DNA of 60,168 nucleotides, taken from assembly GCA_944324425.1 (NCBI GenBank), contig CALUWE010000009.1, forward strand, positions 1-60,168, in the 5' to 3' direction. Made by a program: the position numbers and the translations under genes. The DNA is from Candidatus Gastranaerophilales bacterium. GTDB lineage: Bacteria > Cyanobacteriota > Vampirovibrionia > Gastranaerophilales > Gastranaerophilaceae. The notes under the pieces were generated by a model. It was not told where the DNA came from. It worked only from the letters and a program-made list of their open reading frames with translations, and did not search any database. The stretch's first letter is position 1, and each line of letters opens with the position of its first letter. Shown here one piece after another: positions 26,225-60,168 of this stretch.

Positions 26225-26237
26225 TATTTTTTACTCC
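25253..26237 (-). repeat. Near-identical ~985-bp repeat, copy A
   Basis: This tract is repeated at 27,322-28,306 with a constant offset of 2,069 bases and no gaps. By reading, only three differences occur, all within its first ~72 bases. The last 913 bases (25,325-26,237) are identical. It covers the N-terminal half of the membrane protein plus its start codon and ribosome binding site (GGAGT), and ends sharply 13 bases upstream of the ATG. Confidence 0.9.
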
Positions 26238-44470: not shown

Positions 44471-45712
44471 ATGTTGAGTAATTCTTTGAACGTATTTTTG
44501 AATGATAAACATATCGGAACATTAGAAAAAGACGATAATGGCGGCGTAATTTTTCAATATTCAAACAATGCTGATAGAATCTTATCTTTGAGTTTGCCAA
44601 TTCAAAAAGCTCCTTTTGAAAATAAACAATGCAGAGGATTTTTTAACGGTTTGCTTCCGGAAAGCGAACATACAAGAATTGTTATCGGGAAAAAATACGG
44701 AATTAATCCCAAAAACGATTTTTCTATATTGCAGGCAATAGGTTATGATTGTGCGGGTGCTGTTTCATTTTTTGATAGTTATGATGAGCAAACACCTTCA
44801 AAATACTTGCAAGAAACTTATGAAATTGACTATACACCATTGTCAGAAAATGAACTTGAAAAATTTATAGTTGAACTTCCCCAAAAACCATTGGCAACAG
44901 GAGTTGAAGATATGCGGCTATCTTTAGCCGGAGCACAGGATAAAACTTCTGTAATAGTTGTTGATGGGCAAATAGGAATTCCAAAAGATAACGTGCCGAC
45001 AAGCCATATCTTAAAACCGGCAATAAATGGCTTTAATGAAACTATTGAAAATGAATTTATTTGTATAAAAACAGCTGAAAAATTAGGGATAAAAGTTCCC
45101 GATGTAAAAATCGGTTATGCAAATAAAACAAAATACTTTTTAATTCAAAGATACGATAGAGAAATAATTGTCAATAAAATAAAAAGAATTCATCAAGAAG
45201 ATTTTTGTCAGGCTTCAAATATTCCAAGTACATACAAATACCAAGCCGAAGGCGGGGTTGATTTCAAGAGATGTTTTGAAATTTTAAGAGTCACGTCTCA
45301 GCCTGCAGTTGCAATTAACCAATTTATTCAATTAATGATTTTTAATTACTTGATAGGAAATAATGATGCACACGGCAAGAATTTTTCTATACTGCATTAT
45401 GACAATGGAGAAATAAAGTTTGCACCTGCATACGATATTTTGTGCTCTCAAGTTTATCCTGAATTATCAAATAAAATGGCAATGAAAATCGGCGGGCATT
45501 ATAAACATGATGAGATTTTATTAATGCCTTTTGAAAAATTGGCAAATGAAAATGATATCAGTTTTACCCAGTTAAAAAAAATTATAAAAAATCAATGTGA
45601 AAATCTTCCAATTATTGTTGAGGATGTGATAAACAGCTTTGACAATAAAATAGGAAAAGATATCTTATCGGTAGTACAAAAAAATTGCACTAAATTGTTA
45701 AAAGAATTTTAG
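44471..45712 (+). CDS. hipA: HipA-family serine/threonine kinase toxin
   Basis: HipA-type toxins phosphorylate translation-related targets (GltX in E. coli) and induce dormancy. The 413-residue protein has the N-terminal HipA_N domain and the flexible P-loop SLAGAQDK (151-158, S151 at the place of the autophosphorylated Ser). It also has the catalytic loop NNDAHGKN (Asp299, Asn304) and the metal-binding Asp322 in APAYDIL. All key residues are intact. An AAGAGG ribosome binding site lies in the short gap after hipB. Its 3' end overlaps that of the second hipA-like gene by four bases. Confidence 0.93.
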   Translation: MLSNSLNVFLNDKHIGTLEKDDNGGVIFQYSNNADRILSLSLPIQKAPFENKQCRGFFNGLLPESEHTRIVIGKKYGINPKNDFSILQAIGYDCAGAVSFFDSYDEQTPSKYLQETYEIDYTPLSENELEKFIVELPQKPLATGVEDMRLSLAGAQDKTSVIVVDGQIGIPKDNVPTSHILKPAINGFNETIENEFICIKTAEKLGIKVPDVKIGYANKTKYFLIQRYDREIIVNKIKRIHQEDFCQASNIPSTYKYQAEGGVDFKRCFEILRVTSQPAVAINQFIQLMIFNYLIGNNDAHGKNFSILHYDNGEIKFAPAYDILCSQVYPELSNKMAMKIGGHYKHDEILLMPFEKLANENDISFTQLKKIIKNQCENLPIIVEDVINSFDNKIGKDILSVVQKNCTKLLKEF

Positions 45713-46818
45713 TTTGAGTACAAATTTTTGCATTTTTCTTGAATATCTAAGGCAATATCTTTGGCAGCTTTTTCCTTAAGCCCTATATTTTTTGCAACCG
45801 CTAAAATATCATCTAAACTTGGATTTTTACCTTCTCCGTTAATCGTTGTCGCATGTTCTCCATTGAAAGAAGAACTATAAGTCAGGTCATACGCAGGGGA
45901 TAAATGCCACTCTTTTTTATTGTCATCATAAAGATAAGAAAAATTCTTTGAATGATCATCTCTATTGTGCGCAAAGACATTGAAACACATCAGCCTGAGT
46001 AGTTGTTCAATATCCTGATAATTTCTTGTAATCTCAAGTGTGAGTTTCATCAATATGTTGTAATCGAGATTAGGAAGTCTGTGACTTGTTTCTAGCAGTC
46101 CGCTGGCTGACACCATATGAACTTTTTTACCGTTTTTACGGTCAAACCTTTTTACTCCGAAATACCCTGAACAAATTTTGGATGGGAAAAGCCTTGTTTC
46201 CGGCATATTTATACTGCAATCCTTTGCACAAAGTGAATATTGATATTCTTTTTCCCCGATATTTTTAGGGTCAGATGATGACGGAAATTTAATTATCCAG
46301 TCTTCATTATCTATAGAAGTCAGAATTTTTGGTCTTGCTCCACCAGAGGAACCGCCCAGTTGAAAAAGTTCATCCAAATTGTCCGAATCTTGTGATTCCA
46401 GTATTTTTGAACACTCTTGAGCAAGAAGATCATAATCATCAATATTATTTTTTGTTTCAAATATGTGTTCGGGTTTATAACTCAATGCCCCCATTCCGCT
46501 TTTCTGAACAACTGCAAGACGATTAAGATTATCGACTTCGACAGGGTTTATTCTGTTTTTCAAGAGCAGTCTGTCAACAAGCAACCGTCCCCAGCCGTCT
46601 GGTAAACTGTCATTAAAAACACCAAATAACCCTCCAAATGGTTCGTATTTGGGGATAAAAACTTTCTTGACAAGGGGTAGACTAAAGGGCGAAATGCTAA
46701 AACCGTTGTTCAACCAATTCGAATCATATTCAAAAGCAACAACCTTTTCGGGAGTTTTTGCAAGAGTGCCGACTAAAGTATCGTTATAAAATACTTTTAA
46801 ATATTTATAGTTGTCCAT
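45709..46818 (-). CDS. Second HipA-family kinase toxin
   Basis: The 369-residue protein has all HipA elements: the N-terminal domain with FNDSLPDGWG (68-77), the P-loop GGSSGGARPK (155-164), the catalytic loop DDHSKN (Asp287, Asn292) and SPAYDL (Asp311). It is shorter and only distantly similar to the hipA at 44,471, so the two are different subfamilies rather than a recent duplicate. It overlaps the start of its own XRE gene's end by 14 bases, so the two are coupled. Confidence 0.9.
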   Translation of the reverse strand: MDNYKYLKVFYNDTLVGTLAKTPEKVVAFEYDSNWLNNGFSISPFSLPLVKKVFIPKYEPFGGLFGVFNDSLPDGWGRLLVDRLLLKNRINPVEVDNLNRLAVVQKSGMGALSYKPEHIFETKNNIDDYDLLAQECSKILESQDSDNLDELFQLGGSSGGARPKILTSIDNEDWIIKFPSSSDPKNIGEKEYQYSLCAKDCSINMPETRLFPSKICSGYFGVKRFDRKNGKKVHMVSASGLLETSHRLPNLDYNILMKLTLEITRNYQDIEQLLRLMCFNVFAHNRDDHSKNFSYLYDDNKKEWHLSPAYDLTYSSSFNGEHATTINGEGKNPSLDDILAVAKNIGLKEKAAKDIALDIQEKCKNLYSN

Positions 46819-47089
46819 TTATGACCTCATCAATGGAAACGTAGTTTTTTTGCGTAAACAAATTTTCTAAATCCCCTTCTAAATTAAGAGCAATCAGAAT
46901 TTTTATAAAAGAATTCAAAGAAATTTCATATTTGGACTCAAATCTTTTGATAGAGCCAAGGCTGACACCTGATTTTGAAGCAAGCTGCATTTGTGAAATT
47001 TTAAGCTTTTTTCGATGCTGCTTAATTTTTGCAACCAATTCTTTTGCTATTTCATTAGGAGTTTTAGGGTTAAACAAAAAGCTGTTCAT
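46805..47089 (-). CDS. XRE-family antitoxin/repressor of the second hip module
   Basis: This 94-residue helix-turn-helix protein (ISQMQLASKSGVSLGSIKRF at 31-50) has a short N-terminal arm and a C-terminal tail that overlaps the toxin gene. It is expected to repress its own operon through the palindromes at 47,090-47,150 and to antagonise the HipA-like toxin. Confidence 0.88.
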   Translation of the reverse strand: MNSFLFNPKTPNEIAKELVAKIKQHRKKLKISQMQLASKSGVSLGSIKRFESKYEISLNSFIKILIALNLEGDLENLFTQKNYVSIDEVINGQL

Positions 47090-47105
47090 AGATAATATAT
47101 TATAC
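47090..47105. promoter_or_regulatory. Second-module operator, start-proximal half-perfect site
   Basis: AGATAATATATTATAC directly abuts the start codon and matches the core of the palindrome 40 bases upstream (AGATAATATATTATCT). Confidence 0.6.
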
Positions 47106-47126
47106 TATTTTTGTTAAAAAGTCAAT

Positions 47127-47150
47127 AATTAGATAATATATTATCTAATT
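47127..47150. promoter_or_regulatory. Second-module operator (perfect 24-bp palindrome)
   Basis: A perfect inverted repeat with half-site AATTAGATAATA. It is unrelated in sequence to the TTTACC operators of the first hip module, so the two modules should not cross-regulate through DNA. Confidence 0.75.
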
Positions 47151-47248
47151 TGTGCGCAAGCTCTTCAACCCGAAACACAACAAAATGAAGTTGTGTTGTA
47201 TTTTTTTTGAATATGAGAGCCAAATTTTCTAAACCCCGCTTGAATGCC

Positions 47249-47281
47249 GTTTAAACATTGTTTAAATAGTGTTTAAATTTT
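47249..47281. repeat. Three 11-bp direct repeats (GTTTAAAnnnn) upstream of the recombinase
   Basis: GTTTAAA recurs at 47,249, 47,260 and 47,271, exactly 11 bases (one helical turn) apart, about 65 bases before the recombinase gene. Spacing by one turn suggests a row of protein-binding sites, such as integrase arm sites or an operator. Confidence 0.6.
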
Positions 47282-47346
47282 GTGTCATTCGTCTTTACTT
47301 TTTATAGGGAAAAAGCAATCATTGTCTGAGATTAAGCAGATTTCAA

Positions 47347-47886
47347 ATGAACATAGTACAACCTATAAAAAAGATAGAAGATATTCAAAAGATTAAAAAA
47401 TATTTGGCAAAAAAGCCAAGAGATGCACTGCTTTTTAGTTTTGGGATAAATACAGGACTCAGAATATCAGATATATTATCGCTTGATGTAGTGGACGTAA
47501 AAGGCCGAGATTATATTGAAATTAGAGAGAAAAAGACGAATAAGTATAAAAAATTCCCGCTTAATAGGTTTTTGAAAAAGGAGATTGATTTATTTGTAGA
47601 ATGTTTACCGAGTGAGCAACCGCTTTTTTATACTCAAAAACATTGCAGGTTGGATAGAGCACAGGCATATAGAATTTTGAATAAGGCAGCACAAGCTGTT
47701 GGGGTAAAGGAAAGGATCGGAACTCATACATTGAGGAAGACATTCGGATATAATCATTATAAAAAATATAATGATATAGTACTCCTGCAAAAAATCTTTA
47801 ACCATTCCTCCCCATCAGTAACGCTTCGATATATAGGAATTGAACAAGACACAATCGATGAAAGTTATATGAATTTTTATTTGTGA
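47347..47886 (+). CDS. Minimal tyrosine recombinase (phage integrase family)
   Basis: The 179-residue protein is only the catalytic domain of a tyrosine recombinase; the usual N-terminal core-binding domain is absent. Catalytic residues are intact: Arg39 (TGLRISD), a Lys at 62-64, His127 and Arg130 (HTLRK), His153 (FNHSS) and the nucleophile Tyr162 (LRYIG). Such short enzymes occur on mobile islands. It may integrate or excise this island, or act on a local invertible site. No hsdS cassette partner is visible in the window. Confidence 0.88.
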   Translation: MNIVQPIKKIEDIQKIKKYLAKKPRDALLFSFGINTGLRISDILSLDVVDVKGRDYIEIREKKTNKYKKFPLNRFLKKEIDLFVECLPSEQPLFYTQKHCRLDRAQAYRILNKAAQAVGVKERIGTHTLRKTFGYNHYKKYNDIVLLQKIFNHSSPSVTLRYIGIEQDTIDESYMNFYL

Positions 47887-47909
47887 TAAACTTATAAAAA
47901 AGGGATTTT

Positions 47910-49235
47910 ATGGCATTAATAGAAACAGAGCTTGAAGTTATTAATATTAAGAATTTAAAAAATATTAAAATTCCTGATTATCAAAGACCATATTCTTGGA
48001 GTGTAGAGTCTGTAAATACTCTTTTTGAAGATACATATAATGCGGCTCAAAAACAAATTGCAGAATACCGTTTAGGGACTCTTATTTTACATAAAAAACA
48101 AGACATATATAATATAGTAGATGGACAACAGAGATTAACAACTATTGCAATTTTATTATTTTGTTTAATCCAAAAATGCAAGTTGCCATATGAGTTTTGT
48201 TTAATGAATGCATTATATAGTTCGTTATCAAAGAATGCAATATTAACAAATTATAAAATTTTAAATCAACGAGTTAATGATTTAAATGATCTAGAAAGTA
48301 AAAATTATTTGGATTACATACTATCTCGCTGTACTTTTGTAAAAATAGTCACAGATAGCGAACAAGAAGCTTTTCAGTTTTTTGATTCTCAAAATTCTCG
48401 TGGAAAAGAATTAGCTCCCCATGATTTATTAAAATCATATCACCTGAGAGAAATGAACAATATTGATATTAATAGAAAAGTAAGTATCATTAATAAATGG
48501 GAAAATATAAAACAAGATGATTGGAAAGAGCTATTTGCTAATTATTTATATCCTATTACTCAATGGTATAAAGGGCGGAATGGTTTGTATTATTCATCAA
48601 AAAAAATAAGTCAATTTAAAGGTATTACTCAAAACAATAATTATAATTATGCTATATATCACAAAGCAAGTAATCTTTTTGTTGAACAGTTTAATCAGTC
48701 TGGCAACAATCAATTACTAAACAATGAAATGTTGAATCAATTCCAATTAACTCAACCAATTATTGCAGGGAATCGCTTTTTTACATATAGTATTCATTAC
48801 AAGAATTTATTAGAAGCCATACGAAATAAATTAGAGATTTATCATAAAGATAAAAATGAAATTCCAAATGAAAGATTTGGCGATATTTATATAAAACAAT
48901 TGTATGAATGTTCGTTATTATTTTTTGCAGATAAATTTGGAATAAATTCTGTTAATGATACTACAATACGGATTATTTATACTTGGTGTTATTTGCTTAG
49001 GTTAAAAATGATTGCAATTTATATGCAAACAATCAACAAATATGCTTGTGGAAATCATAATTCAAGAACTAATATTGATATAAATCTTTTTGAATACATC
49101 AATGATATTTCAAAGCCAAATGATTTAAACCTCCTTATTATTCCAAAACCGCAAGACGATGAAATAGATAATAAAAATAAAGTAAAGTATAAAGCAATAT
49201 ACAATAAATTATATAAAGATAATGGATGGAAATAA
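47910..49235 (+). CDS. DUF262-domain protein, first of pair (GmrS/RloF-like)
   Basis: The 441-residue protein has the ParB/Srx-fold DUF262 domain: IPDYQRPYSW (21-30), GTLIL and DGQQRLTT (71-78), the nucleotide-hydrolysis motif of GmrSD, BrxU and SspE-type defence proteins. The C-terminal half is helical and lacks a recognisable HNH motif. AAAAGGGA precedes the ATG. Its stop lies within the start region of the next DUF262 gene, so the two proteins probably form one complex. A role in restricting modified or foreign DNA is inferred from family and context. Confidence 0.85.
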   Translation: MALIETELEVINIKNLKNIKIPDYQRPYSWSVESVNTLFEDTYNAAQKQIAEYRLGTLILHKKQDIYNIVDGQQRLTTIAILLFCLIQKCKLPYEFCLMNALYSSLSKNAILTNYKILNQRVNDLNDLESKNYLDYILSRCTFVKIVTDSEQEAFQFFDSQNSRGKELAPHDLLKSYHLREMNNIDINRKVSIINKWENIKQDDWKELFANYLYPITQWYKGRNGLYYSSKKISQFKGITQNNNYNYAIYHKASNLFVEQFNQSGNNQLLNNEMLNQFQLTQPIIAGNRFFTYSIHYKNLLEAIRNKLEIYHKDKNEIPNERFGDIYIKQLYECSLLFFADKFGINSVNDTTIRIIYTWCYLLRLKMIAIYMQTINKYACGNHNSRTNIDINLFEYINDISKPNDLNLLIIPKPQDDEIDNKNKVKYKAIYNKLYKDNGWK

Positions 49236-49236
49236 A

Positions 49237-51054
49237 ATGCTGGACTGTAAACTCAAACCAATACAAATATCCATTGATGATATTTTTAAAGATGTTATAT
49301 ATGTAGTTCCAATATATCAAAGGAACTATGCTTGGAATGCAAAACAAATAGAACAATTAATAGACGATATAAATAGTGCTGAAAACAATTATTATCTTGG
49401 AACTCTGATAACAAATCAAAAAGAACCGAGCGTGTACGAAATAATAGATGGCCAACAAAGATTAACAACTTTGTACTTGCTAAAATTATACTTATCAAAT
49501 AATTTAAATCAAAAAGATTTATGTAAAGGTGAACCATTACAATTTGAAGCACGCAAAAAATATCGTAATACACTAATATGTCTTAAAAATAGTTCTGTAA
49601 TAAATGATGAAATTATAGTTCCAGAACTATATGACGGTTATATTGCTATAAAAAAATATTTTGAAAATAATTCTAATATATTAAATCCAAATAAATTCCG
49701 TGAAAAACTTAAAAGAGTCTACCTAATAAGAATACAGGTTCCAAAAAATATAGATTTAAATCATTATTTTGAAATAATGAACACTAGAGGAGAACAATTG
49801 GAGCTTCATCAAATTGTAAAAGCAAAAATACTGGAAAAATTAGAAAAACCTGAAGACAAGGAAATTGCGTCAAAAATCTGGGATAGTTGTGCAAATATGG
49901 ATTCCTATATTCAAATGAATTTTAATACAAGAATAAGAAATAGTTTGTTTTCAAGTGGTTGGACAGATTTGCAAGAAGAGATTATTGATAATTGGGATAA
50001 TCTAGTTCAGGCCTTTACGCATCAAAATAAAGAAAAATCATTTGACAAATGTTCTTTAAAGGAAATTTTGACAGAAGTAAATACTGAAAATATTAAGAAC
50101 CTCGATGATGAAGATTATAATGATAATGAGCGTTTTAAATCTACAATATCATTCCCCAATTTTATTTTACAAGTTAATGCTGCAATTAATAATGACGAAA
50201 AAAATGATTATTCATTAGATGATAAATACTTTATAGAAATATTAAAAAATAATTGGGCAGACGAAAAAACGTCAAAAAACTTCATATTAAAAATGTTACA
50301 ATGCCGTACATTATTTGATAAATATATTATAAAACGTGAATATGCAAAAGATTATCAAAAAATAGGTAAATGGTCATTGCAAAAACTAGAAAAGTATACT
50401 AATAAAAATGAAAATGATAATGCAAAACCAATATATAAATCAACATACTCAAAATCCGATAAGGAAGAAGAAGATAATATAACCCAAAAGTTGCGGACTT
50501 TAGAATCTGCATTGCGTATTACATATACATCTCCCAAAACTATGCATTGGATTACAATTGTACTTAAAAAATTATTAGAAGATAAAAATACTGATTTAAT
50601 ACCTGTATTAGAACAATACTGTTTGGGAAAAATATCTGATTCAAATTACAAAAATAAAAGTGGATTTGATATAGAAAGAATAGTTTTTTCATATCTAGAT
50701 TATTTATTATACAGAGATAATTATAATAATATTGTAGAAAAAGATTGGGAATTCCAGTTCAGGAATTCAATCGAACATTTTTATCCTCAACACCCTGATA
50801 ATGGTGAATATTGGGGTTTAAATGAACTTAATGATTTTGGCAATTTAGCTTTGATAACAGTATCGGGAAATTCAAAATTTTCGAATATGCCACCAAGTGC
50901 AAAAAGTGATTATAAAGAAATAATAAATCAAAGTATAAAACTTCGTATTATGTCAATTATTGTTAATAATAATGATAAAATTTGGACAAAAGAACTTGCA
51001 GAAAAACATAAGCAGGAAATGATAAATATTCTTGATAATAATGGAATAAAATAA
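49237..51054 (+). CDS. DUF262 + DUF1524 protein, second of pair (GmrSD/RloF-like)
   Basis: The N-terminal DUF262 domain carries VPIYQRNYAW and DGQQRLTT (71-78). The C-terminal DUF1524 domain has an HNH-like nuclease signature (SIEHFYPQHP, then LNDFGNLALIT and NSKFSN). This is the layout of type IV restriction enzymes such as GmrSD and of SspE: an NTPase sensor plus nuclease. I chose the ATG at 49,237 (605 residues), as GGATGG gives it a ribosome binding site; an ATG at 49,222 inside the previous gene is also possible. Two adjacent DUF262 genes, only one with the nuclease, suggests a hetero-complex. Confidence 0.87.
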   Translation: MLDCKLKPIQISIDDIFKDVIYVVPIYQRNYAWNAKQIEQLIDDINSAENNYYLGTLITNQKEPSVYEIIDGQQRLTTLYLLKLYLSNNLNQKDLCKGEPLQFEARKKYRNTLICLKNSSVINDEIIVPELYDGYIAIKKYFENNSNILNPNKFREKLKRVYLIRIQVPKNIDLNHYFEIMNTRGEQLELHQIVKAKILEKLEKPEDKEIASKIWDSCANMDSYIQMNFNTRIRNSLFSSGWTDLQEEIIDNWDNLVQAFTHQNKEKSFDKCSLKEILTEVNTENIKNLDDEDYNDNERFKSTISFPNFILQVNAAINNDEKNDYSLDDKYFIEILKNNWADEKTSKNFILKMLQCRTLFDKYIIKREYAKDYQKIGKWSLQKLEKYTNKNENDNAKPIYKSTYSKSDKEEEDNITQKLRTLESALRITYTSPKTMHWITIVLKKLLEDKNTDLIPVLEQYCLGKISDSNYKNKSGFDIERIVFSYLDYLLYRDNYNNIVEKDWEFQFRNSIEHFYPQHPDNGEYWGLNELNDFGNLALITVSGNSKFSNMPPSAKSDYKEIINQSIKLRIMSIIVNNNDKIWTKELAEKHKQEMINILDNNGIK

Positions 51055-51128
51055 GTAATATAATTCCGTATACTAATTATCTAATTATAAAATTTTATAG
51101 GGACTTTTTATTATATACTGCTAACAAT

Positions 51129-51172
51129 ACAACATAGTAATTATATTGATACGAAACATAATTATATGTTGT
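51129..51172. repeat. AT-rich inverted repeat between convergent genes
   Basis: ACAACATAGTAATTAT pairs with ATAATTATATGTTGT (51,158-51,172) with a single bulged G and a 13-base loop. It lies between the converging DUF262 gene and the unknown gene at 51,239, so a bidirectional terminator is likely, though it lacks the usual GC stem and T-run. Confidence 0.5.
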
Positions 51173-51238
51173 TCCATTAAAAATGTTTAACTATATTAGA
51201 TATATAAATTAATATTTGAAATGCAATTTAAAATTTGT

Positions 51239-52348
51239 TTAATACATAGTTCCAAGTGAAACTTGTTTACTATTAAGATCATAAATTAAGCTTAATAAAC
51301 ATTTTTTATAATGGTGGTTCTTTTCGAACTCCAAAAATATATTAAAAGTAACAACGTTATATGCTTTTTTTATTTTTTCATTATAACCATTTTTAAATTC
51401 AATATTATACCAAGATTGATTCAATATTTTCTTATTTATTTCACTTATAAAATCCTCTTTTTTTACACCAATTCTGTTAAAAATTTGTTTATTATTCTCT
51501 AAATATAAATATTTAGCTTTATCAATTTTAACTTTGTTGATTGGTAATTGACAAGTTTCATCAGATGTTATGAACAGTGTATTTATCATTCTGTCATCAT
51601 CACTAGAAACTGTTCCAATTGTTGTATCAATTTTATATCGTAAAAAAACATCAAATAAGTATTGATTAATACCAACCACTTTATATCCAGCAGTTTTCCA
51701 ATCTAAACAACCATTATTTACGTTGCTATATTCAGTAAATTCAATGTCAGGATCTGCATTAAATATTTTATTTCCAATTTTAACATATTGCGTGGCAACT
51801 GATACATGAGAAATATATGACTTAAATTTTGAGTCAAAGCTCATATCACAAGTTCCAAGGTAATAATATTTGCTTTTGAAAAATTTATCTATGTTCTCTA
51901 TAGAAGCTTTTGAAATATTATTTATATATATAAGAAAATAATTTGCAGCCCATTTTGAGTCTATTGGGATTCCTAAAGTATGATACATAAGAGAAATAAC
52001 TGAATATAAATTAGAATCAAATGTTATTAAATCACCCATAAGAATATTATGTTTACTATTTTTATCTAATAATTCAACGATATTCTTTTCTATATCGGAA
52101 TATACCTCATTGCCATTTGGAGTTAATCTAAAAACAAACAGTTGTTCAAAACGATCTTTACCATTTGATGGTGTTAATACACATCTAAATTCGTTATATT
52201 TAACACCAGTTTTGATTAATACTTGTGTAAGTATTTTATGAGCGGCAATTATTTCTTTTTGCAGTTTATTTGCCGTCAAATCAAAATGTTCATACATTGT
52301 TTTTAGTAAAAAATTATCCCTAGCTTCAATTGAATATATAGCAGTCAT
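51239..52348 (-). CDS. Unrecognised protein in defence island
   Basis: I recognise no family for this 369-residue soluble protein. It begins with a helical region (MTAIYSIEARDNFLLKTMYE) and is mixed alpha/beta with many Tyr, Lys and Asn. There is no membrane segment, P-loop, nuclease signature or HTH that I can see. It is the only gene on the minus strand between the DUF262 pair and the type I RM operon, with its own possible extended -10 (TGCTACAAT, minus strand, 52,359-52,367) and an almost leaderless start. By position it could be a single-gene defence or anti-defence factor, or a cargo gene. Confidence 0.65.
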   Translation of the reverse strand: MTAIYSIEARDNFLLKTMYEHFDLTANKLQKEIIAAHKILTQVLIKTGVKYNEFRCVLTPSNGKDRFEQLFVFRLTPNGNEVYSDIEKNIVELLDKNSKHNILMGDLITFDSNLYSVISLMYHTLGIPIDSKWAANYFLIYINNISKASIENIDKFFKSKYYYLGTCDMSFDSKFKSYISHVSVATQYVKIGNKIFNADPDIEFTEYSNVNNGCLDWKTAGYKVVGINQYLFDVFLRYKIDTTIGTVSSDDDRMINTLFITSDETCQLPINKVKIDKAKYLYLENNKQIFNRIGVKKEDFISEINKKILNQSWYNIEFKNGYNEKIKKAYNVVTFNIFLEFEKNHHYKKCLLSLIYDLNSKQVSLGTMY

Positions 52349-52386
52349 ATCTGTGTCTATTGTAGCACAACAAGATCAAGCATTGG

Positions 52387-52398
52387 GTGTATTTACAC
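52387..52398. promoter_or_regulatory. Small inverted repeat in the hsdM upstream region
   Basis: GTGTATTTACAC (5-bp arms, TT centre) sits midway in the ~90-base divergent gap between hsdM and the unknown gene. It is suitable as an operator controlling both. The evidence is position and symmetry only. Confidence 0.3.
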
Positions 52399-52441
52399 TC
52401 TTAATATTTCTTAATATATTTAATATAAAATGAGGTAAAGT

Positions 52442-54028
52442 ATGGTTTTTGACATTAAAGATTTTCAAAATAAACTTTGGAAAACGGCTGATGACCTGCG
52501 TGCTAATTCCAGTTTAAAATATAATGAGTTTTCTACTCCTGTTTTAGGATTGATATTTTTACGTTTTGCTGACTATAGGTTTCAAAAAGCAAAGCCTAAA
52601 ATAGAAAAATTAAAATCAACCGCTTCTCGCAGAGCTTTTGATGAGAAAAATGCTTATCAGGCAAGAGGTGTTTTATTTGTTCCGGAAAAAGCATCTTTTA
52701 AATATCTTTTAAATCTCCCTGAAGGTGAAAGTGCAGGCAGTGCATTAAACGAAGCTATGTCATTAATGGAAAGCGAAAATTCAATTCTCAAAGGTGTACT
52801 TCCTAAAAACTATTTGAGAATTCCCGATGATTTATTAGTTTCAACAATGAAAATCTTTAATGATGTTGAGTTTGACCGCAATAACGGCGACATCTTCGGT
52901 AAGGTCTACGAATTTTTCCTCGGAAAATTCGCAAGCTCAGAAGGACAAAAGGGCGGAGAATTCTATACGCCTACATGTTTGGTAAAACTGCTTGTAGAGA
53001 TTATGAAGCCTTTCCATGGGAAAGTTTATGACCCTGCATGCGGCTCAGGCGGTATGTTTGTTCAAACTGCAGAGTTTGCCAAAAGAGAAAATAAAGACTC
53101 TGATAAATCTGTTAATGATTTGATAACTGTTGAAGGTCAAGAAAAAACAGAAGAAACTGTTAGATGGTGTAAAATGAACCTTGCAGTCCACGGTCTTGAA
53201 GGTGATGTTAAACAAGCAAACAGTTTTTATGAAGATGTTTTTAACTCAGTAGGTAAATATAATTTTGTTCTGGCAAATCCTCCATTTAACGTTGATGGGG
53301 TAGATAAAGAGAGATTGAAAGGCGATAAAAGATTCCCATTCGGATTACCAAAAGCCGATAACGCTAACTACTTGTGGATTCAAATGTTTTACTCTGCACT
53401 AAAGACTCCAGAGAATGGAGAAAACTCACGTGCAGGATTCGTAATGCCAAATTCTGCAAGTGATGCTAGACAAACAGAACAGACTATTCGAGAAAATATT
53501 ATCAAAGACAATGCCGTGGATGTAATGGTATCAGTTGGATCAAATATGTTTCATAACGTAACTTTACCTTGTACCCTTTGGTTTTTGGATAAAGGAAAGA
53601 AAAATACCGATAGAAAAGATAAAGTACTTTTCTTAGATGTAAGAGAAATTTATACTCAAATAGATAGAGCTCATAGAGAATTCACTGATGAACAAATAGA
53701 ATTTATTACAAATATTGTCAAGTTATATAGAGGAGAAGCACCTGAATATAAATGGGGCAGTAAAAAACTGACCCTTGAACATTTTCCTGATGAAAAATAT
53801 AAAGATATAAAAGGTCTTTGTAAAGTTGCGACTATTACAGATATAGAAAAACAAGGATGGAGTTTAAACGCAGGACGTTATGTCGGAGTAAAAGAAGTTG
53901 AAGAAGAAGACTATATCTTTGAAGAAAAACTCCAAGAGTTGGACTCTGAACTAGAAAAACTAAATTCAGAATCAAAAGACCTTGAAGAAAAGATTGCACA
54001 TAATATAAAACAATTGTTGGGTGTATAA
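52442..54028 (+). CDS. hsdM: Type I restriction-modification methyltransferase subunit HsdM
   Basis: HsdM supplies the N6-adenine methyltransferase activity of the type I enzyme. The 528-residue protein has the N-terminal HsdM_N helical domain (WKTADDLRANSSLKYNEF) and GGEFYTP. SAM-binding motif I is DPACGSGGMF (~196-205) and catalytic motif IV is NPPF (~279-282). A helical C-terminal tail contacts HsdS. A GAGGT ribosome binding site precedes the ATG. It is the first gene of the five-gene operon. Confidence 0.97.
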   Translation: MVFDIKDFQNKLWKTADDLRANSSLKYNEFSTPVLGLIFLRFADYRFQKAKPKIEKLKSTASRRAFDEKNAYQARGVLFVPEKASFKYLLNLPEGESAGSALNEAMSLMESENSILKGVLPKNYLRIPDDLLVSTMKIFNDVEFDRNNGDIFGKVYEFFLGKFASSEGQKGGEFYTPTCLVKLLVEIMKPFHGKVYDPACGSGGMFVQTAEFAKRENKDSDKSVNDLITVEGQEKTEETVRWCKMNLAVHGLEGDVKQANSFYEDVFNSVGKYNFVLANPPFNVDGVDKERLKGDKRFPFGLPKADNANYLWIQMFYSALKTPENGENSRAGFVMPNSASDARQTEQTIRENIIKDNAVDVMVSVGSNMFHNVTLPCTLWFLDKGKKNTDRKDKVLFLDVREIYTQIDRAHREFTDEQIEFITNIVKLYRGEAPEYKWGSKKLTLEHFPDEKYKDIKGLCKVATITDIEKQGWSLNAGRYVGVKEVEEEDYIFEEKLQELDSELEKLNSESKDLEEKIAHNIKQLLGV

Positions 54029-54030
54029 GA

Positions 54031-55176
54031 ATGCTAGATATTGAATTTAAAAATTTTATACAACTGCAAAGAGGTTTTGATCTACCTGAGCACTCCAGAA
54101 TATTGGGTAATGTTCCCGTTGTTGCCTCAACATCAATATCTGGTTTCCATAATGTAGCAAAAGTAAAAGCTCCAGGAGTGGTTACAGGACGAAGTGGAGC
54201 TTTAGGTGAAGTACAGTTTATAAATGAAGATTTTTGGCCTTTAAATACAACTTTGTGGGTTAAGGATTTTAAAAATAATGATCCTAAATATGTATATTAT
54301 TTTTTAAAAACTATTGACTTTAAACGCTATAATTCTGGAGCTGGTGTGCCAACCCTAAATAGAAATGATTTAGACACATTAAAAATAAAAATACATGAAA
54401 AAAATGAACAATTAAAAATTGCAAAACTTTTATCAAACTATGATGATTTGATAGAGAATAACAACAGGCGTATAAAGATATTAGAGGAGATGGCACAGAA
54501 GATATATAAAGAGTGGTTTGTAGATTTCAAATTCCCCGGTCACGAAACCACAACATTCAAAGATTCCCCCCTTGGCAAAATCCCAAACGATTGGGAGGTA
54601 AAGAAAATTGGTAAAGAATATAAAACATATTTAGGGGGCACTCCAAGTAGAAATGAAATAAAATATTGGAATGGCGACATTCCGTGGTTAAATTCCGGGA
54701 AAACAAATGAATTGCGAATAACTGAAGCAAGTGAATATATTACTAAAGCAGGATTGGAAAAATCAAGTACAAAGCTAATGCCAAAGTTTACAACAGTTTT
54801 AGCAATAACAGGAGCAACTCTAGGCCAAGTAAGTATGCTAGGGGATGAAATGTGTGCCAATCAATCTGTCGTTGGGGTATATTCTAATACAAACCAAGAA
54901 TTTGTATTTTATTTATTAAAAGACAAAATAAAAAAGTTAATACAGAATGCGAGCGGTGGAGCACAGCAACATATAAATAAGGATATTGTTAATGAAATGG
55001 AATTTATATTGCCAACAAATAATATCCTTAACGACTTCACAAACATATTAAAACCAATTAATTTGGAAATTTTTAATTTATTACATAAAAACAGGGTCCT
55101 AAAACAAACACGTGATACATTGCTTCCTCGCCTAATCTCCGGCGAAATTAATGTTGAAAATATGGAGATTGCATAA
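54031..55176 (+). CDS. hsdS: Type I restriction-modification specificity subunit HsdS
   Basis: HsdS recognises the bipartite DNA target. The 381-residue protein has two target-recognition domains (~1-140 and ~185-340). They are separated by the central conserved coiled coil (LIENNNRRIKILEEMAQKIY, then KEWFVDFKFPGHE), and a second conserved segment at the end (NRVLKQTRDTLLPRLISGEI). It is a complete, single gene starting two bases after hsdM. The target sequence cannot be read from the protein here. Confidence 0.96.
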   Translation: MLDIEFKNFIQLQRGFDLPEHSRILGNVPVVASTSISGFHNVAKVKAPGVVTGRSGALGEVQFINEDFWPLNTTLWVKDFKNNDPKYVYYFLKTIDFKRYNSGAGVPTLNRNDLDTLKIKIHEKNEQLKIAKLLSNYDDLIENNNRRIKILEEMAQKIYKEWFVDFKFPGHETTTFKDSPLGKIPNDWEVKKIGKEYKTYLGGTPSRNEIKYWNGDIPWLNSGKTNELRITEASEYITKAGLEKSSTKLMPKFTTVLAITGATLGQVSMLGDEMCANQSVVGVYSNTNQEFVFYLLKDKIKKLIQNASGGAQQHINKDIVNEMEFILPTNNILNDFTNILKPINLEIFNLLHKNRVLKQTRDTLLPRLISGEINVENMEIA

Positions 55177-55220
55177 AACAACCTCCATATGATATTATAT
55201 TTCAAATGGGATTTTAGTGA

Positions 55221-55727
55221 ATGAATAATAAAGAAATACAAGAGTTAATATCCTGTGAAAAGACAATAGTTGAACGCCCTAAACGTTCATTCAAACAAAA
55301 TGGAATGCACGAAGAGAATTCTTTTTTGCTAAAGTCTTTCGATTTTCCAAATATGAAATTTTCTGTGCGTATGCGAAAACATCTTGAATTTATTGAAAAT
55401 TATTCTATAATGCTTGCTTCTTATATTCCAGAGCTAGAAAAAGAAATTAGATTAATTAGATTTAATGGACCACATCCTAGCATGCACAAAAACAATATTA
55501 TTAACAATGAAAAATGGGATCATAAATCCCACATACATATTGCTACAAAAGAAGCTATAGAGGCAGGTTTTCAGGCGGAACATTATGCAGAAATAACAGA
55601 AGAATATCAAATATTTGATGATGCGCTTTCTTTGTTTTGGGAAAAAGTAAACATTGTAGATAGAATAGAAAATTTCTTTCCAGAAATTAAGCAGAAAAAA
55701 TTATTTAACATTCGGGTGTTAAGATGA
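55221..55727 (+). CDS. Uncharacterised protein between hsdS and hsdR (possibly DUF6978-like)
   Basis: The 168-residue soluble protein has a central His-rich stretch (FNGPHPSMHKNN, then WDHKSHIHIATKEA) and a C-terminal acidic helix. The His pattern could bind metal. I think it resembles DUF6978-type proteins that occur beside DUF1828 genes, but this is from memory and uncertain. Its stop overlaps the start of the next gene (ATGA), so the two are translationally coupled and likely partners. It is not a normal component of type I RM systems. Confidence 0.7.
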   Translation: MNNKEIQELISCEKTIVERPKRSFKQNGMHEENSFLLKSFDFPNMKFSVRMRKHLEFIENYSIMLASYIPELEKEIRLIRFNGPHPSMHKNNIINNEKWDHKSHIHIATKEAIEAGFQAEHYAEITEEYQIFDDALSLFWEKVNIVDRIENFFPEIKQKKLFNIRVLR

Positions 55728-56470
55728 ATTTAATTGAAGTTATTAAAGAGAACATAAAACCTTATATAGATATACAAGAAACCAGACCAAATCTTTACCA
55801 AATAATCGCACCTTTTTATCATGAAGATGGTGACATGGTTGAAATTTATATTGAATATAAAGATGGAAAAATTAAAATATGCGATATGGGTATGACATTA
55901 ATGAAATTGTCATACGATATTGAACTAAAAAATACAAATGAAAAAATATTTAATGAAATATTGAAAGAAAATTATTTAGATGTAGAAAATGGGAATATTT
56001 TTATTGAATCAGACATAAAAACTATTAATTCAAAGTTTCTACAGTATGCAAATGCAATAAGCAAAATTTCAGGATTAAAATATTTTACAAAACATAGACA
56101 AAAAAATATTTTTTATGAAATCTTAAGTGAATTTGTAAGAGAGAAGTTTGCAAATATTTCATATAAAGAAAAATATACTCCTATAGAACAATATAAAGAT
56201 TACATTGTTGATTTTATGTTTGGTACAAAACAAAAGCCATTATATTTATTTGCTGTAAAAGATGACAATAAAGCCAAAGACGTAATAATTGCAAACCAAG
56301 CTTTTAGATTGGAAAAAATTTCGTTTAAACCCGTTGTTGTATATCAAAATTATTCTACAATTAGTAGTATAACAAAAGAAAAAATACTTAGAGTAACTGA
56401 CAAATCTTTTTTAGATATAGAACAATTTAAAGAAGAAGCCTATCAATATATTTCGGAAGAAGTTGCATAA
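55724..56470 (+). CDS. DUF1828/DUF1829-type protein
   Basis: The 248-residue protein fits a DUF1828 N-terminal domain (YIEYKDGKIKICDMGMTLMKL, the D-x-G-x-T-L pattern) followed by a DUF1829-like C-terminal half (VDFMFGTKQKPLYLFAVKDD). The family is common near mobile elements and restriction genes, and its function is unknown. The C-terminal pattern of beta-strands with Asp and Lys (YIVDFMFG, then LYLFAVKD) is reminiscent of restriction-endonuclease-like folds, but I cannot confirm a catalytic set. It starts within the stop of the preceding gene and lies 15 bases before hsdR. Confidence 0.75.
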   Translation: MNLIEVIKENIKPYIDIQETRPNLYQIIAPFYHEDGDMVEIYIEYKDGKIKICDMGMTLMKLSYDIELKNTNEKIFNEILKENYLDVENGNIFIESDIKTINSKFLQYANAISKISGLKYFTKHRQKNIFYEILSEFVREKFANISYKEKYTPIEQYKDYIVDFMFGTKQKPLYLFAVKDDNKAKDVIIANQAFRLEKISFKPVVVYQNYSTISSITKEKILRVTDKSFLDIEQFKEEAYQYISEEVA

Positions 56471-56485
56471 GAGGCAAAAATCGCA

Positions 56486-59400
56486 ATGCATAAATTATCA
56501 GAAGAAGCATTTGAAAAAGACTTAATGCAGGAATGTAAAGACTCTCTTGGGTTTGAACTTTTTGATGCAACCTGTGAAATAGTTGGTTCTGATGATTCTA
56601 CTTTTGGCAGACAAACAACAGAAGAAGTTATTTTATCTAAAAATCTAAGAAATGCTTTAGAAAAATTAAATCCTGATTTACCCCAAGAAGCTATTGATAA
56701 TGCGTTTTATGAATTAACTCAAAATTTATCAAATAAAACAGAAATTGGTGCTAACCAGTTTATTTATAAAATTATTAAAGATGGGGTTAAAGTTCAATTT
56801 AAAGATAATAACGGAATTGACTCCAGTGACATTGTGAAAGTTATTGACTTTAATAGACCTAAAGAAAATGAATTTTTACTTGTTAGGCAGTTTAAAATCT
56901 CAGGAGAAAGATACAATTGTAGAGCTGATTTGATTTTATTTGTAAACGGATTACCTCTTGTATTCATTGAATTAAAAGCAACTCACAAACATATTGAAAA
57001 TGCGTTTTATAACAATATAACTCATTATAAAAAAGAAATTCCGCAAGTATTCTGGTATAACGCTTTTATTGTGGTATCTAATGGAACAGATGCTAAATTC
57101 GGAACGATTACTTCTAAATGGGAACATTTTTCAGATTGGAAGAAAATAAATAATGAAAATGAAAAGGGTATAATTTCTGCTGATACTTTATTGAAAGGAA
57201 TGTGTTCTCCTAATAATCTACTTGATATTATTGAAAATTTTACACTGTATCAAGAAACAAAGGGCGGAACGATAAAAATTTGCGCAAAAAATCACCAATT
57301 CTTAGGTGTTAATACTGCTATTGAGAATTTTGAAAGTAATAAAGATGGAAAATTAGGAGTCTTCTGGCATACCCAAGGTAGTGGTAAAAGTTTTTCAATG
57401 ATATTTTTTGTTCAAAAAATATTGAGAAAAGTCAAAGGAAACTGGACATTTCTAATTGTTACAGATAGAACAGACTTAGATGATCAAATATATAAAAACT
57501 TTGTTTCAACAGGAGCAGTAACAGAACAAAATGTTCAGGCTACAACAAGAGAACATTTAAAACAACTTTTAAGGGAAGATCATAGAACTGTGTTTACTAT
57601 GATTCAAAAATTTGGTACTGAAGAAAAAGGACAAAGTTTTGAAAAAATTTCTGATAGAGATGATATTATTGTAATTACTGATGAAGCCCACCGAACTCAG
57701 TATGGAACGCTTGCTATGAATATGCGAGAAGCCTTACCAAATGCAAAATTTATAGCATTTACAGGCACTCCATTAATGAAGGATGATGAAAAAACTAAAC
57801 TTGTATTTGGTGATTATGTTAGTAAATACACTTTCAAACAATCTATTGAAGATCATGCAACTGTTCCATTGTATTATGAAGCACGAATTCCTCGAATGCA
57901 GCTTACAAATGATGAATTAGAAAAGGATTTGCAAAATATCATTGATTCTGCAGATTTTACTCCCGAACAAGAGGAACAGTTTGAAAAAGAATATGTAAAT
58001 ATGTATCAGGTAATTACAAGGGAAGATCGGCTTGATGCAATTGCAAAAGATGTTGTTGAACATTTCATGAACCGCGGTTTTATGGGAAAAGCTATGTATG
58101 TTTCAATCGATAAAGCAACTGCGGTTAAAATGTATAATAAAGTCAAAAATGAATGGGAAAAATATATACAAAAACTAAAAAATAAACTTAAAACGGCAAA
58201 TGATGATCTTAAAGAAATTATCAAAAAAGATATCGAGTATATGGAAGAAACAGATATGGCTGTCGTTGTGTCCTCTTCACAAAATGAAATTGAACAATTA
58301 AAACAAAAAGGTGTTGATATTACTCCACACAGAACAAGAATGAAAAATGAGGATTTAGCAACAAACTTTAAAAATGAAAAACATCCACTACGCCTAGTTT
58401 TTGTTTGTGCAATGTGGGTTACAGGTTTTGATTGCTCTACTATTTCGACATTGTATCTTGATAAAATTTTAAAAGAACATACTTTAATGCAAACAATTGC
58501 CAGAGCTAATAGAGTATCAGAAGGAAAGTTTAATGGTCTAATTGTTGATTACATTGGTATATTCAAAGCATTACAAAAAGCTTTGGCGATTTATGGTGAG
58601 CCAACAGAACCTGCAGATAATGATGAAGATCCGGCAGAAACTAAGACAAAATTAATTGAGCTTCTTGAAAATGAATCGAAAAAGATGAAGGATTTACTTG
58701 ATTCTAAGGAAATTAATGTGGATAAAATATTTGATACAAGAGCATTAGAATGTATTAAAAATACAGAAGAAGCTGTAAATAAATTATTGGAGAATGAAAA
58801 AACAAAAGAAGATTTCCTAAAACATACACAAAATTTAAAAATGTTATTCAAGGCCATATTACCAGATTCAGAAGCAAGAAGATATGCCAAATTAGTTTTT
58901 GTGTCTTCAGTAATTTATTCAAAAATTAAAGAAGCTTTAGTAGAATATGTAGACAAAACAGAAGTAAAAAGACTTGCACAGCAAGTAGAAGAGTTGTTAA
59001 ATGAATCAATAAAACTAGCATCTTATAAAATTAATTCTGGAGAAAAATTAGATTTAAGTAAAATTAATTTTGAAGAACTCCAAAGACGAATCCTAAAAGA
59101 GAAAAAACTTGCGTTATTAGAAAAATTAAAAGCATCTATAAGTTCTAAATTATCTTCGATGTTGAAACTAAATGATATGAGAAAGCATTTTCAAGAGAAA
59201 TTTGAACAAATTATTGAAGATTATAATAATGGTAAGTTAACAATGGAACAAATGTATGTACAACTTGTTGCTTTAACTAACCAGCTAACAGAAGAAGAAA
59301 AACGTCATTTGGATGAAAATTTATCAGAAGAAGAACTTGCAATTTTAGATATTTTAACAAAACCTGAACCAAAGCTTTCCAAAAAAGAATTTGAGACTGT

Positions 59401-59635
59401 TAAATTAGCAGCACAAAAATTGGTAAAAGTAATAAAAAAAGAAAAATTAGTTTTGGATTGGCGCAAAAAACAATCAACTAGAGCTAAAGTAAAAGAAGCA
59501 ATCGAAACAATTTGTGATGAGACATTACCTGAAATATATGATAAAGATTTATTCCAGAAAAAATGTAATTATTTATACAACCACTTTTATGATCACTATA
59601 ACAATTACAAAGACAATATTTATGATGTTGCATAA
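56486..59635 (+). CDS. hsdR: Type I restriction endonuclease/translocase subunit HsdR
   Basis: HsdR is the motor and nuclease of the type I enzyme; it translocates unmethylated DNA and cuts at a distance. The 1,049-residue protein has the N-terminal PD-ExK nuclease (RADLILFVNGLPLVFIELKA, ~148-167). The SF2 helicase follows, with Walker A HTQGSGKS (~295) and DEAH box ITDEAHRTQYG (~395). Motif VI is TIARANRVSEG, and a long helical C-terminal domain binds HsdM/HsdS. All key residues are intact, so the system is likely active. Confidence 0.97.
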   Translation: MHKLSEEAFEKDLMQECKDSLGFELFDATCEIVGSDDSTFGRQTTEEVILSKNLRNALEKLNPDLPQEAIDNAFYELTQNLSNKTEIGANQFIYKIIKDGVKVQFKDNNGIDSSDIVKVIDFNRPKENEFLLVRQFKISGERYNCRADLILFVNGLPLVFIELKATHKHIENAFYNNITHYKKEIPQVFWYNAFIVVSNGTDAKFGTITSKWEHFSDWKKINNENEKGIISADTLLKGMCSPNNLLDIIENFTLYQETKGGTIKICAKNHQFLGVNTAIENFESNKDGKLGVFWHTQGSGKSFSMIFFVQKILRKVKGNWTFLIVTDRTDLDDQIYKNFVSTGAVTEQNVQATTREHLKQLLREDHRTVFTMIQKFGTEEKGQSFEKISDRDDIIVITDEAHRTQYGTLAMNMREALPNAKFIAFTGTPLMKDDEKTKLVFGDYVSKYTFKQSIEDHATVPLYYEARIPRMQLTNDELEKDLQNIIDSADFTPEQEEQFEKEYVNMYQVITREDRLDAIAKDVVEHFMNRGFMGKAMYVSIDKATAVKMYNKVKNEWEKYIQKLKNKLKTANDDLKEIIKKDIEYMEETDMAVVVSSSQNEIEQLKQKGVDITPHRTRMKNEDLATNFKNEKHPLRLVFVCAMWVTGFDCSTISTLYLDKILKEHTLMQTIARANRVSEGKFNGLIVDYIGIFKALQKALAIYGEPTEPADNDEDPAETKTKLIELLENESKKMKDLLDSKEINVDKIFDTRALECIKNTEEAVNKLLENEKTKEDFLKHTQNLKMLFKAILPDSEARRYAKLVFVSSVIYSKIKEALVEYVDKTEVKRLAQQVEELLNESIKLASYKINSGEKLDLSKINFEELQRRILKEKKLALLEKLKASISSKLSSMLKLNDMRKHFQEKFEQIIEDYNNGKLTMEQMYVQLVALTNQLTEEEKRHLDENLSEEELAILDILTKPEPKLSKKEFETVKLAAQKLVKVIKKEKLVLDWRKKQSTRAKVKEAIETICDETLPEIYDKDLFQKKCNYLYNHFYDHYNNYKDNIYDVA

Positions 59636-59656
59636 AGTTTGACTTTAGCAAACTTT
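59634..59656 (+). terminator. Weak hairpin after hsdR
   Basis: AAAGTTTG (59,634-59,641) pairs with CAAACTTT (59,649-59,656) across the hsdR stop. Few T residues follow, so it may terminate only partly or stabilise the mRNA 3' end. Confidence 0.4.
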
Positions 59657-59666
59657 TAAGTGATGA

Positions 59667-59693
59667 ATACGACACCTGAAAAGGAGGTCGTAT
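59667..59693 (+). promoter_or_regulatory. Hairpin that buries the ribosome binding site of the small ORF
   Basis: ATACGAC (59,667-59,673) pairs with GTCGTAT (59,687-59,693). Inside, CCT pairs with AGG around a GAAA tetraloop. The AGGAGG ribosome binding site (59,682-59,687) and the first two bases of the ATG (59,692-59,694) are all in the stem, so translation would be off when folded. This looks like an RNA switch, thermometer-type or dependent on translation or a ligand, but no ligand domain is seen. Confidence 0.55.
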
Positions 59694-59916
59694 GAGTAAA
59701 AGTAAGAAATATAAGATTAAACAAAAAGATTTTAGGAAGTTAGAAAAATTAGTAGAACGGATTTATAACACCGCTGTAGTCATTGATTATTTTTGCAAAA
59801 CGCAACAAGAGATTGAGAAGCTATATAATCTTACACCAATCGTCGAAAATTTAAGGCGAGATACTGATACAGTAAACGCTTATTTTATAAATTATCCTGA
59901 CAACAAGAATTTTTAA
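59692..59916 (+). CDS. Small basic hypothetical protein
   Basis: The 74-residue Lys-rich helical protein (SKSKKYKIKQKDFRKLEKLV, then a Tyr- and Asp-rich end) has a consensus AAGGAGG ribosome binding site that is sequestered in a hairpin. No family is recognised. Its position after the RM operon and its basic N-terminus are compatible with a DNA- or protein-binding accessory, but this is not shown. Confidence 0.6.
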   Translation: MSKSKKYKIKQKDFRKLEKLVERIYNTAVVIDYFCKTQQEIEKLYNLTPIVENLRRDTDTVNAYFINYPDNKNF

Positions 59917-59918
59917 GT

Positions 59919-59943
59919 GGTATTTAAAAGTTGTTTTAATACC
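59919..59943 (+). repeat. Inverted repeat after the small ORF
   Basis: GGTATTTAAAA pairs with TTTTAATACC (59,934-59,943) with one bulged T and a GTTG loop. It begins two bases after the stop codon. It may be a terminator or a protein-binding site; the ~120 bases after it show no further gene. Confidence 0.4.
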
Positions 59944-60064
59944 GTTCAAAAAGTGTTCCAAAAATGAATTGTGTCTGAATGATAAGTTTTGAGAGAGTTT
60001 GCTTGATATTTTACTCATTAAGAGTGATGAATGTCATTGCTATAAATGAATATAAGGGGTAGCA

Positions 60065-60168
60065 ATGATTGAATTAGGCAAAAAATACAAACTTAAAAAG
60101 ATTAAAGGTTTTAAGAGCTCTGATAATGAGTATTACAAAGTAATTGGCTTCTACAATTTCGACACTGT
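60065..60168 (+). CDS. Truncated ORF at window end
   Basis: An open frame beginning MIELGKKYKLKKIKGFKSSD continues past the window edge. It has a ribosome binding site (AAGGGGT) just before the ATG. Only 34 residues are visible, Lys-rich, with no recognisable domain. Confidence 0.5.
   Translation, partial: MIELGKKYKLKKIKGFKSSDNEYYKVIGFYNFDT

Follow-up and report, generated by a model that had tools for sequence, protein, structure and literature searches.

The gene that we call X occupies positions 51239–52348 on the minus strand of a 60,168-nt stretch of DNA from a Candidatus Gastranaerophilales bacterium (contig CALUWE010000009.1; hereafter the window). Its ORF starts with ATG and encodes an uncharacterised 369-aa protein, a candidate stand-alone defence protein. 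As the original prediction described, X is placed between a convergent DUF262/GmrSD_N pair and a type I restriction-modification (RM) operon beginning with hsdM. The window carries, in order, a 179-aa tyrosine recombinase (47347–47886, plus strand; Phage_integrase, 5.7e-23), the GmrSD-like pair, X and hsdM. Profile matches identify the pair as a DUF262/GmrSD_N plus DUF7834 protein (47910–49235, plus strand) and a DUF262/GmrSD_N plus GmrSD_C protein (49222–51054, plus strand), and the RM genes as HsdM, the methyltransferase (52442–54028), HsdS, the specificity subunit (54031–55176), and HsdR, the restriction subunit (56486–59635), all on the plus strand. The recombinase, which was also found at loci L052, L055 and L056, forms the far edge of a cargo slot and hsdM its near edge; the GmrSD-like pair is other cargo of the same slot. 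No Rfam family was found within window positions 47000–60168.

The X ORF is a real gene. In 20 simulations of 60 kb with matched composition, stop-free runs reached at most 151 codons, so X is far longer than a chance ORF. Pairwise dN/dS values of 0.12–0.22 among the hsdM-linked X copies place the protein under purifying selection and, together with the homologues described below, confirm X as a coding gene. In the window it is a single-gene transcription unit, and its product is soluble, with no membrane segment by hydropathy.

The original prediction also credited X with a promoter-like element of its own. An element matching TGnTAnAAT (TGCTACAAT, approximately 52359–52367, minus strand) lies upstream of X and is conserved in each of the four copies linked to hsdM. 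Judged by this match, it may be the extended −10 of X, in which case it would yield a nearly leaderless mRNA. The case for it is weak: a promoter consensus scan of the region found 14 sites where chance predicts 15.0, performed no better than on shuffled sequence and gave no convincing X promoter. On the opposite strand, the hsdM promoter and leader (TTTACA-17-TATATT, then AGGT; 52392–52441, plus strand) are retained in most hsdM loci, with X present or absent.

Several features of the surrounding DNA are recorded here in their own right. The recombinase is flanked by two HipA-like genes and an HTH antitoxin-like gene (44471–47089), and in both L052 and L055 the 369-aa HipA-like gene and its HTH gene again accompany this recombinase. 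A second variable slot lies between hsdS and hsdR (55221–56470). In the window it holds DUF6978-like and DUF1828 (PADLOC PDC-M24B) genes; elsewhere it holds PDC-S19 (L004), an AbiJ-like protein (L014), a Fic-like gene (L051) or GIY-YIG-like and Fic-like genes identified by eye (L015). Farther away, at 24221–28293, adjacent genes for membrane proteins of 667 and 689 aa are near-identical in their N-terminal halves (>300 residues) and diverge in their C-terminal halves, with a third paralogue at 28402–30462; the pair looks like a recent duplication or gene conversion.

Homologues of X were recovered by tblastn over 96–100% of its length at 25–27% identity. Full-length copies reside on conjugative and mobilizable plasmids of Burkholderia stagnalis, Burkholderia savannae, Robbsia andropogonis and Pseudomonas aeruginosa. 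The Kocuria rosea copy is partial (found with the prophage copy as query), having lost its C-terminus beside an IS3 element. A single copy came from IMG/VR, on a contig of a Mu-like prophage, and the phages collection gave no match. Closer homologues, at 49–78% identity, occur in a few genomes of the window's own family. Across profile searches of its phylum, class and family (382–386 genomes each), full-length copies were confined to the family, where the carriers are G000, G156, G288, G017, G521 and G596, with a decayed copy interrupted by three in-frame stops in G530. X therefore has an accessory distribution (7 of 383 family genomes, counting the decayed copy and leaving out a match in G113 at E 9.9e-4 and 18 bits). 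L002 and L003 are the same locus, recovered from two other metagenome bins; L004 and G521 likewise share one contig position. Members are mostly 346–369 aa long. They make up a small family without a name, spread over bacteria of distant phyla.

We found no match above threshold for X in Pfam, NCBIfam, PADLOC 2.0 (2023), PHROGs or PDB sequences, and a nine-sequence X profile searched against PDB sequences gave none either. Among nine homologues searched against PADLOC, a single member matched a CARF profile at chance level (E 0.033), and this match was set aside, as was a Pfam YtxK match. Identity with STIV_B116/AcrIII-1 (PF08960) was also rejected: the match, at residues 254–312, is below threshold (17.2 bits against a cut-off of 26), and we attribute it to chance because it appears in only two of nine homologues and the GH..T/A motif is absent. 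The accession numbers that we looked for were not found in the literature. No housekeeping or transposon gene emerged as a relative of X, a kind of homology that the original prediction had named as telling against it.

Eleven of eleven X copies share Y51, P60, E68, F71, F73, G105, Y163, G165, K176, G221, D252, D276, Y282 and K307, among other residues. Of the catalytic motifs that we looked for, none is conserved across the copies: the HEPN/MNT motifs R-x4-6-H and GS-x-DxD are absent in all ten members other than the Kocuria one, and X lacks a Walker A motif. Neither an HsdM, HsdS, HsdR or other RM domain nor a DNA-binding domain was recognised in it. The profile, PDB-sequence and motif searches thus agree with the earlier view that X has no nameable motif. 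The search for remote homology, suggested at the same time, turned up the plasmid and prophage relatives. Structure prediction gave poor models. A single-sequence AlphaFold (AlphaFold2) model was unusable (mean pLDDT 33.6), and a model from a three-sequence alignment reached a mean pLDDT of only 41.9 (35–85 locally). In the latter, residues ~65–172 are modelled as beta-alpha-beta-beta-alpha-beta and align with ribosomal protein S6, NikR and ACT domains. The best match of this low-confidence model is ribosomal S6 (VIA Z 7.9 over 85 residues, rmsd 3.3), and a Z below 8 may reflect merely a common arrangement. Foldseek against the PDB and viral models gave nothing at E ≤ 0.001. We read the model as hinting weakly at a ferredoxin-like middle domain, and we did not take the likeness to S6, NikR and ACT domains as evidence of function because the arrangement is common.

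The window hsdM, at 89% identity or above, is present in 17 of the 383 family genomes, and the genes upstream of its promoter differ between them. The slot holds an intact X in four (the window, G521/L004, G156 and G288) and the decayed copy in G530. In its place we found a type II-A retron in G088 (RT_II-A, 1.2e-98; NDT_II-A effector, 5.5e-75), Hachiman in G271 (HamA, 1.7e-53; HamB, 3.7e-208) together with a KAP NTPase, and an AbiO/Nhi-like helicase in G102 (1.5e-146). These systems take the same position next to hsdM in sister genomes, and no sequence similarity to X was detected in them. The slot is empty in G367, where the tyrosine recombinase ends just upstream of the hsdM promoter, and is also without cargo in G627 and G588, as judged from short upstream sequence. 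G290, G228 and G624 carry genes without a recognised defence domain; the upstream sequence of G546 and G537 is the same as that of G290 over the available length, and in G258 the slot is cut by contig ends. The differing contents suggest that X is one of several interchangeable defence modules. As a separate observation, the KAP NTPase that shares the Hachiman slot (L055:6964–9741; 925 aa, divergent from hsdM) has weak QatA/PifA similarity.

By raw dS, X appeared younger than hsdM and hsdR. Because low GC3 could create a falsely young X, and protein identity and raw dS can both mislead in AT-rich genes, we repeated the comparison by counting codon divergence at identical residues and scaling it to the saturation expected from codon usage. 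X reached 0.52–0.74 of saturation, hsdM 0.85–0.92 in five of six pairs and 0.55 in the window–G288 pair, and hsdR 0.83–0.98. The difference therefore holds against hsdR in all six pairs and against hsdM in every pair except window–G288, the six pairs being drawn from four sequences and thus not independent. These values suggest that X is usually younger at hsdM-linked loci than the flanking hsd genes, which would make it movable cargo and not a subunit or regulator of the RM system.

Looking across all 13 distinct X loci, window included, X has a restriction gene or another defence gene, known or predicted, beside it at 11, a count without a random-gene control; the co-occurrence with defence genes that the original prediction proposed to look for was thus observed, and the association is strong. 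In G017 (locus L016) the neighbours of X are type II methyltransferases and a homologue of type II nicking endonucleases, and in G596 (L030) AbiEii with a DUF6088 gene. The P. aeruginosa copy adjoins Wadjet JetABCD plus a CBASS cyclase that has a SAVED-HNH effector, the Robbsia copy an E1-E2/multiubiquitin locus as well as a UvrD/GajB-like helicase, the B. savannae copy IetAS, and the Kocuria copy a type III restriction (R) fragment. No recognised defence neighbour was present at the B. stagnalis and Mu-like prophage loci. Linkage to type I RM is not constant, since at seven loci (G017, G596 and five plasmids) the restriction systems beside X are of another kind or absent. In G017, the region L016:4034–9242 encodes two DNA methyltransferases and a 490-aa protein resembling the type II nicking endonuclease family PADLOC PDLC03392. 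Genes for proteins of 241 and 1072 aa near X on the B. stagnalis plasmid (L005:14955–18905), which have no PADLOC match, are possible further defence genes.

X is therefore a conserved accessory family. At one site it alternates with known defence systems, and it is repeatedly found beside defence genes; this positional evidence is the strongest clue to its role. Given the defence neighbours at 11 of 13 loci and the filling of its slot elsewhere by other systems, X is probably an uncharacterised phage-defence gene. We note that toxin-antitoxin, mobile-element or anti-defence genes share such islands and can mislead guilt by association. The original prediction had offered either a new defence system or an immunity regulator; the first finds support by association and the second does not, as most loci that share this hsdM promoter lack X, no DNA-binding domain was recognised in it, and it is also encountered where type I RM is absent.

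Two of the alternatives we considered tie X to the adjacent RM operon. In one, X guards the type I RM enzyme as PrrC does with EcoprrI, the RM complex keeping X silent until phage anti-restriction proteins attack it and release the toxin. PrrC is a known precedent for an RM-linked accessory nuclease (PMC2610378), and PrrC/RloC anticodon nucleases resemble X in being encoded by an accessory gene within a type I RM locus, though X proteins, mostly 346–369 aa, differ from them in size. X is also divergent from hsdM at four loci, with 92–93 bp between the starts, and the two co-occur strongly within the family (five of the seven X genomes carry this hsdM, compared with 17 of all 383; Fisher p 1.8e-6, only nominal because the genomes are related). 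We nevertheless consider a guard role unlikely: 12 of the 17 genomes with the same hsdM lack X, the gene appears younger than hsdM and hsdR, it has no Walker A/ABC ATPase, unlike PrrC/RloC, and the family is not tied to type I RM, sitting beside type II RM, AbiE, Wadjet/CBASS and IetAS with no type I RM in the stretch read. That X regulates the hsd operon is less probable still. The two starts, 93 bp apart, share a regulatory region, but the hsdM promoter is unchanged in loci without X, no DNA-binding domain was found and homologues elsewhere are not adjacent to hsdM.

The remaining alternatives look to other partners or to the mobile elements themselves. X may need a DUF5677 partner in Burkholderia and Robbsia: in B. 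stagnalis, B. savannae and Robbsia, a DUF5677 gene lies directly upstream on the same strand with a gap of 217–227 bp, and its product (L005:11042–11773) contains an R-x6-H string, RVFCSFAH, that appears reminiscent of HEPN RNases. X could be half of a two-gene system whose other half, this possibly HEPN-like protein, was lost or replaced in some lineages. We give this little weight, as the window genome has no DUF5677 gene and none is annotated beside the P. aeruginosa X, while the Burkholderia and Robbsia X proteins are 96% identical, so the linkage probably reflects one event and not three. We did not find DUF5677 described as defence in the literature. The plasmid and Mu-like prophage copies would also suit an anti-restriction or other counter-defence gene that helps plasmids and prophages survive defence islands. 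This too seems improbable, because copies in the window's own family lie inside chromosomal RM islands with apparently intact hsdMSR, where blocking restriction would defeat the island, and because defence systems otherwise occupy the slot.

We therefore favor, with reasonable though far from complete confidence, the reading that X is an autonomous, horizontally exchanged anti-phage gene carried as cargo between the tyrosine recombinase and the type I RM hsdM. As a working mechanism, infection would switch on X, a soluble one-protein effector working inside the infected cell. Our best guess is that triggered X would then harm cell or phage nucleic-acid metabolism, leading to abortive infection; the possible ferredoxin-like middle domain weakly suggests binding of nucleic acid or a ligand. 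A further proposal, in which X would be an effector that counters phage as a single protein through a new catalytic or sensing mechanism and would form a defence family across unrelated phyla that is absent from the searched catalogues, is tentative, and we regard it as rather doubtful.

The arrangement resembles the defence islands and hotspots with variable cargo described for the E. coli defence-island repertoire (PMC10121019), in that variable defence genes are exchanged at a fixed chromosomal site that lies beside a recombinase gene. Candidate defence genes in islands are thus already a known kind, and X differs from the catalogued island systems in belonging to a family absent from the catalogues searched. 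At 1.1 kb, the single gene is small enough for direct cloning and testing. If X protects against phage, it would add an unlisted cross-phylum family to bacterial immunity, and the other contents of the hsdM-linked slot in this bacterial family are a simple source of further candidate defence genes.
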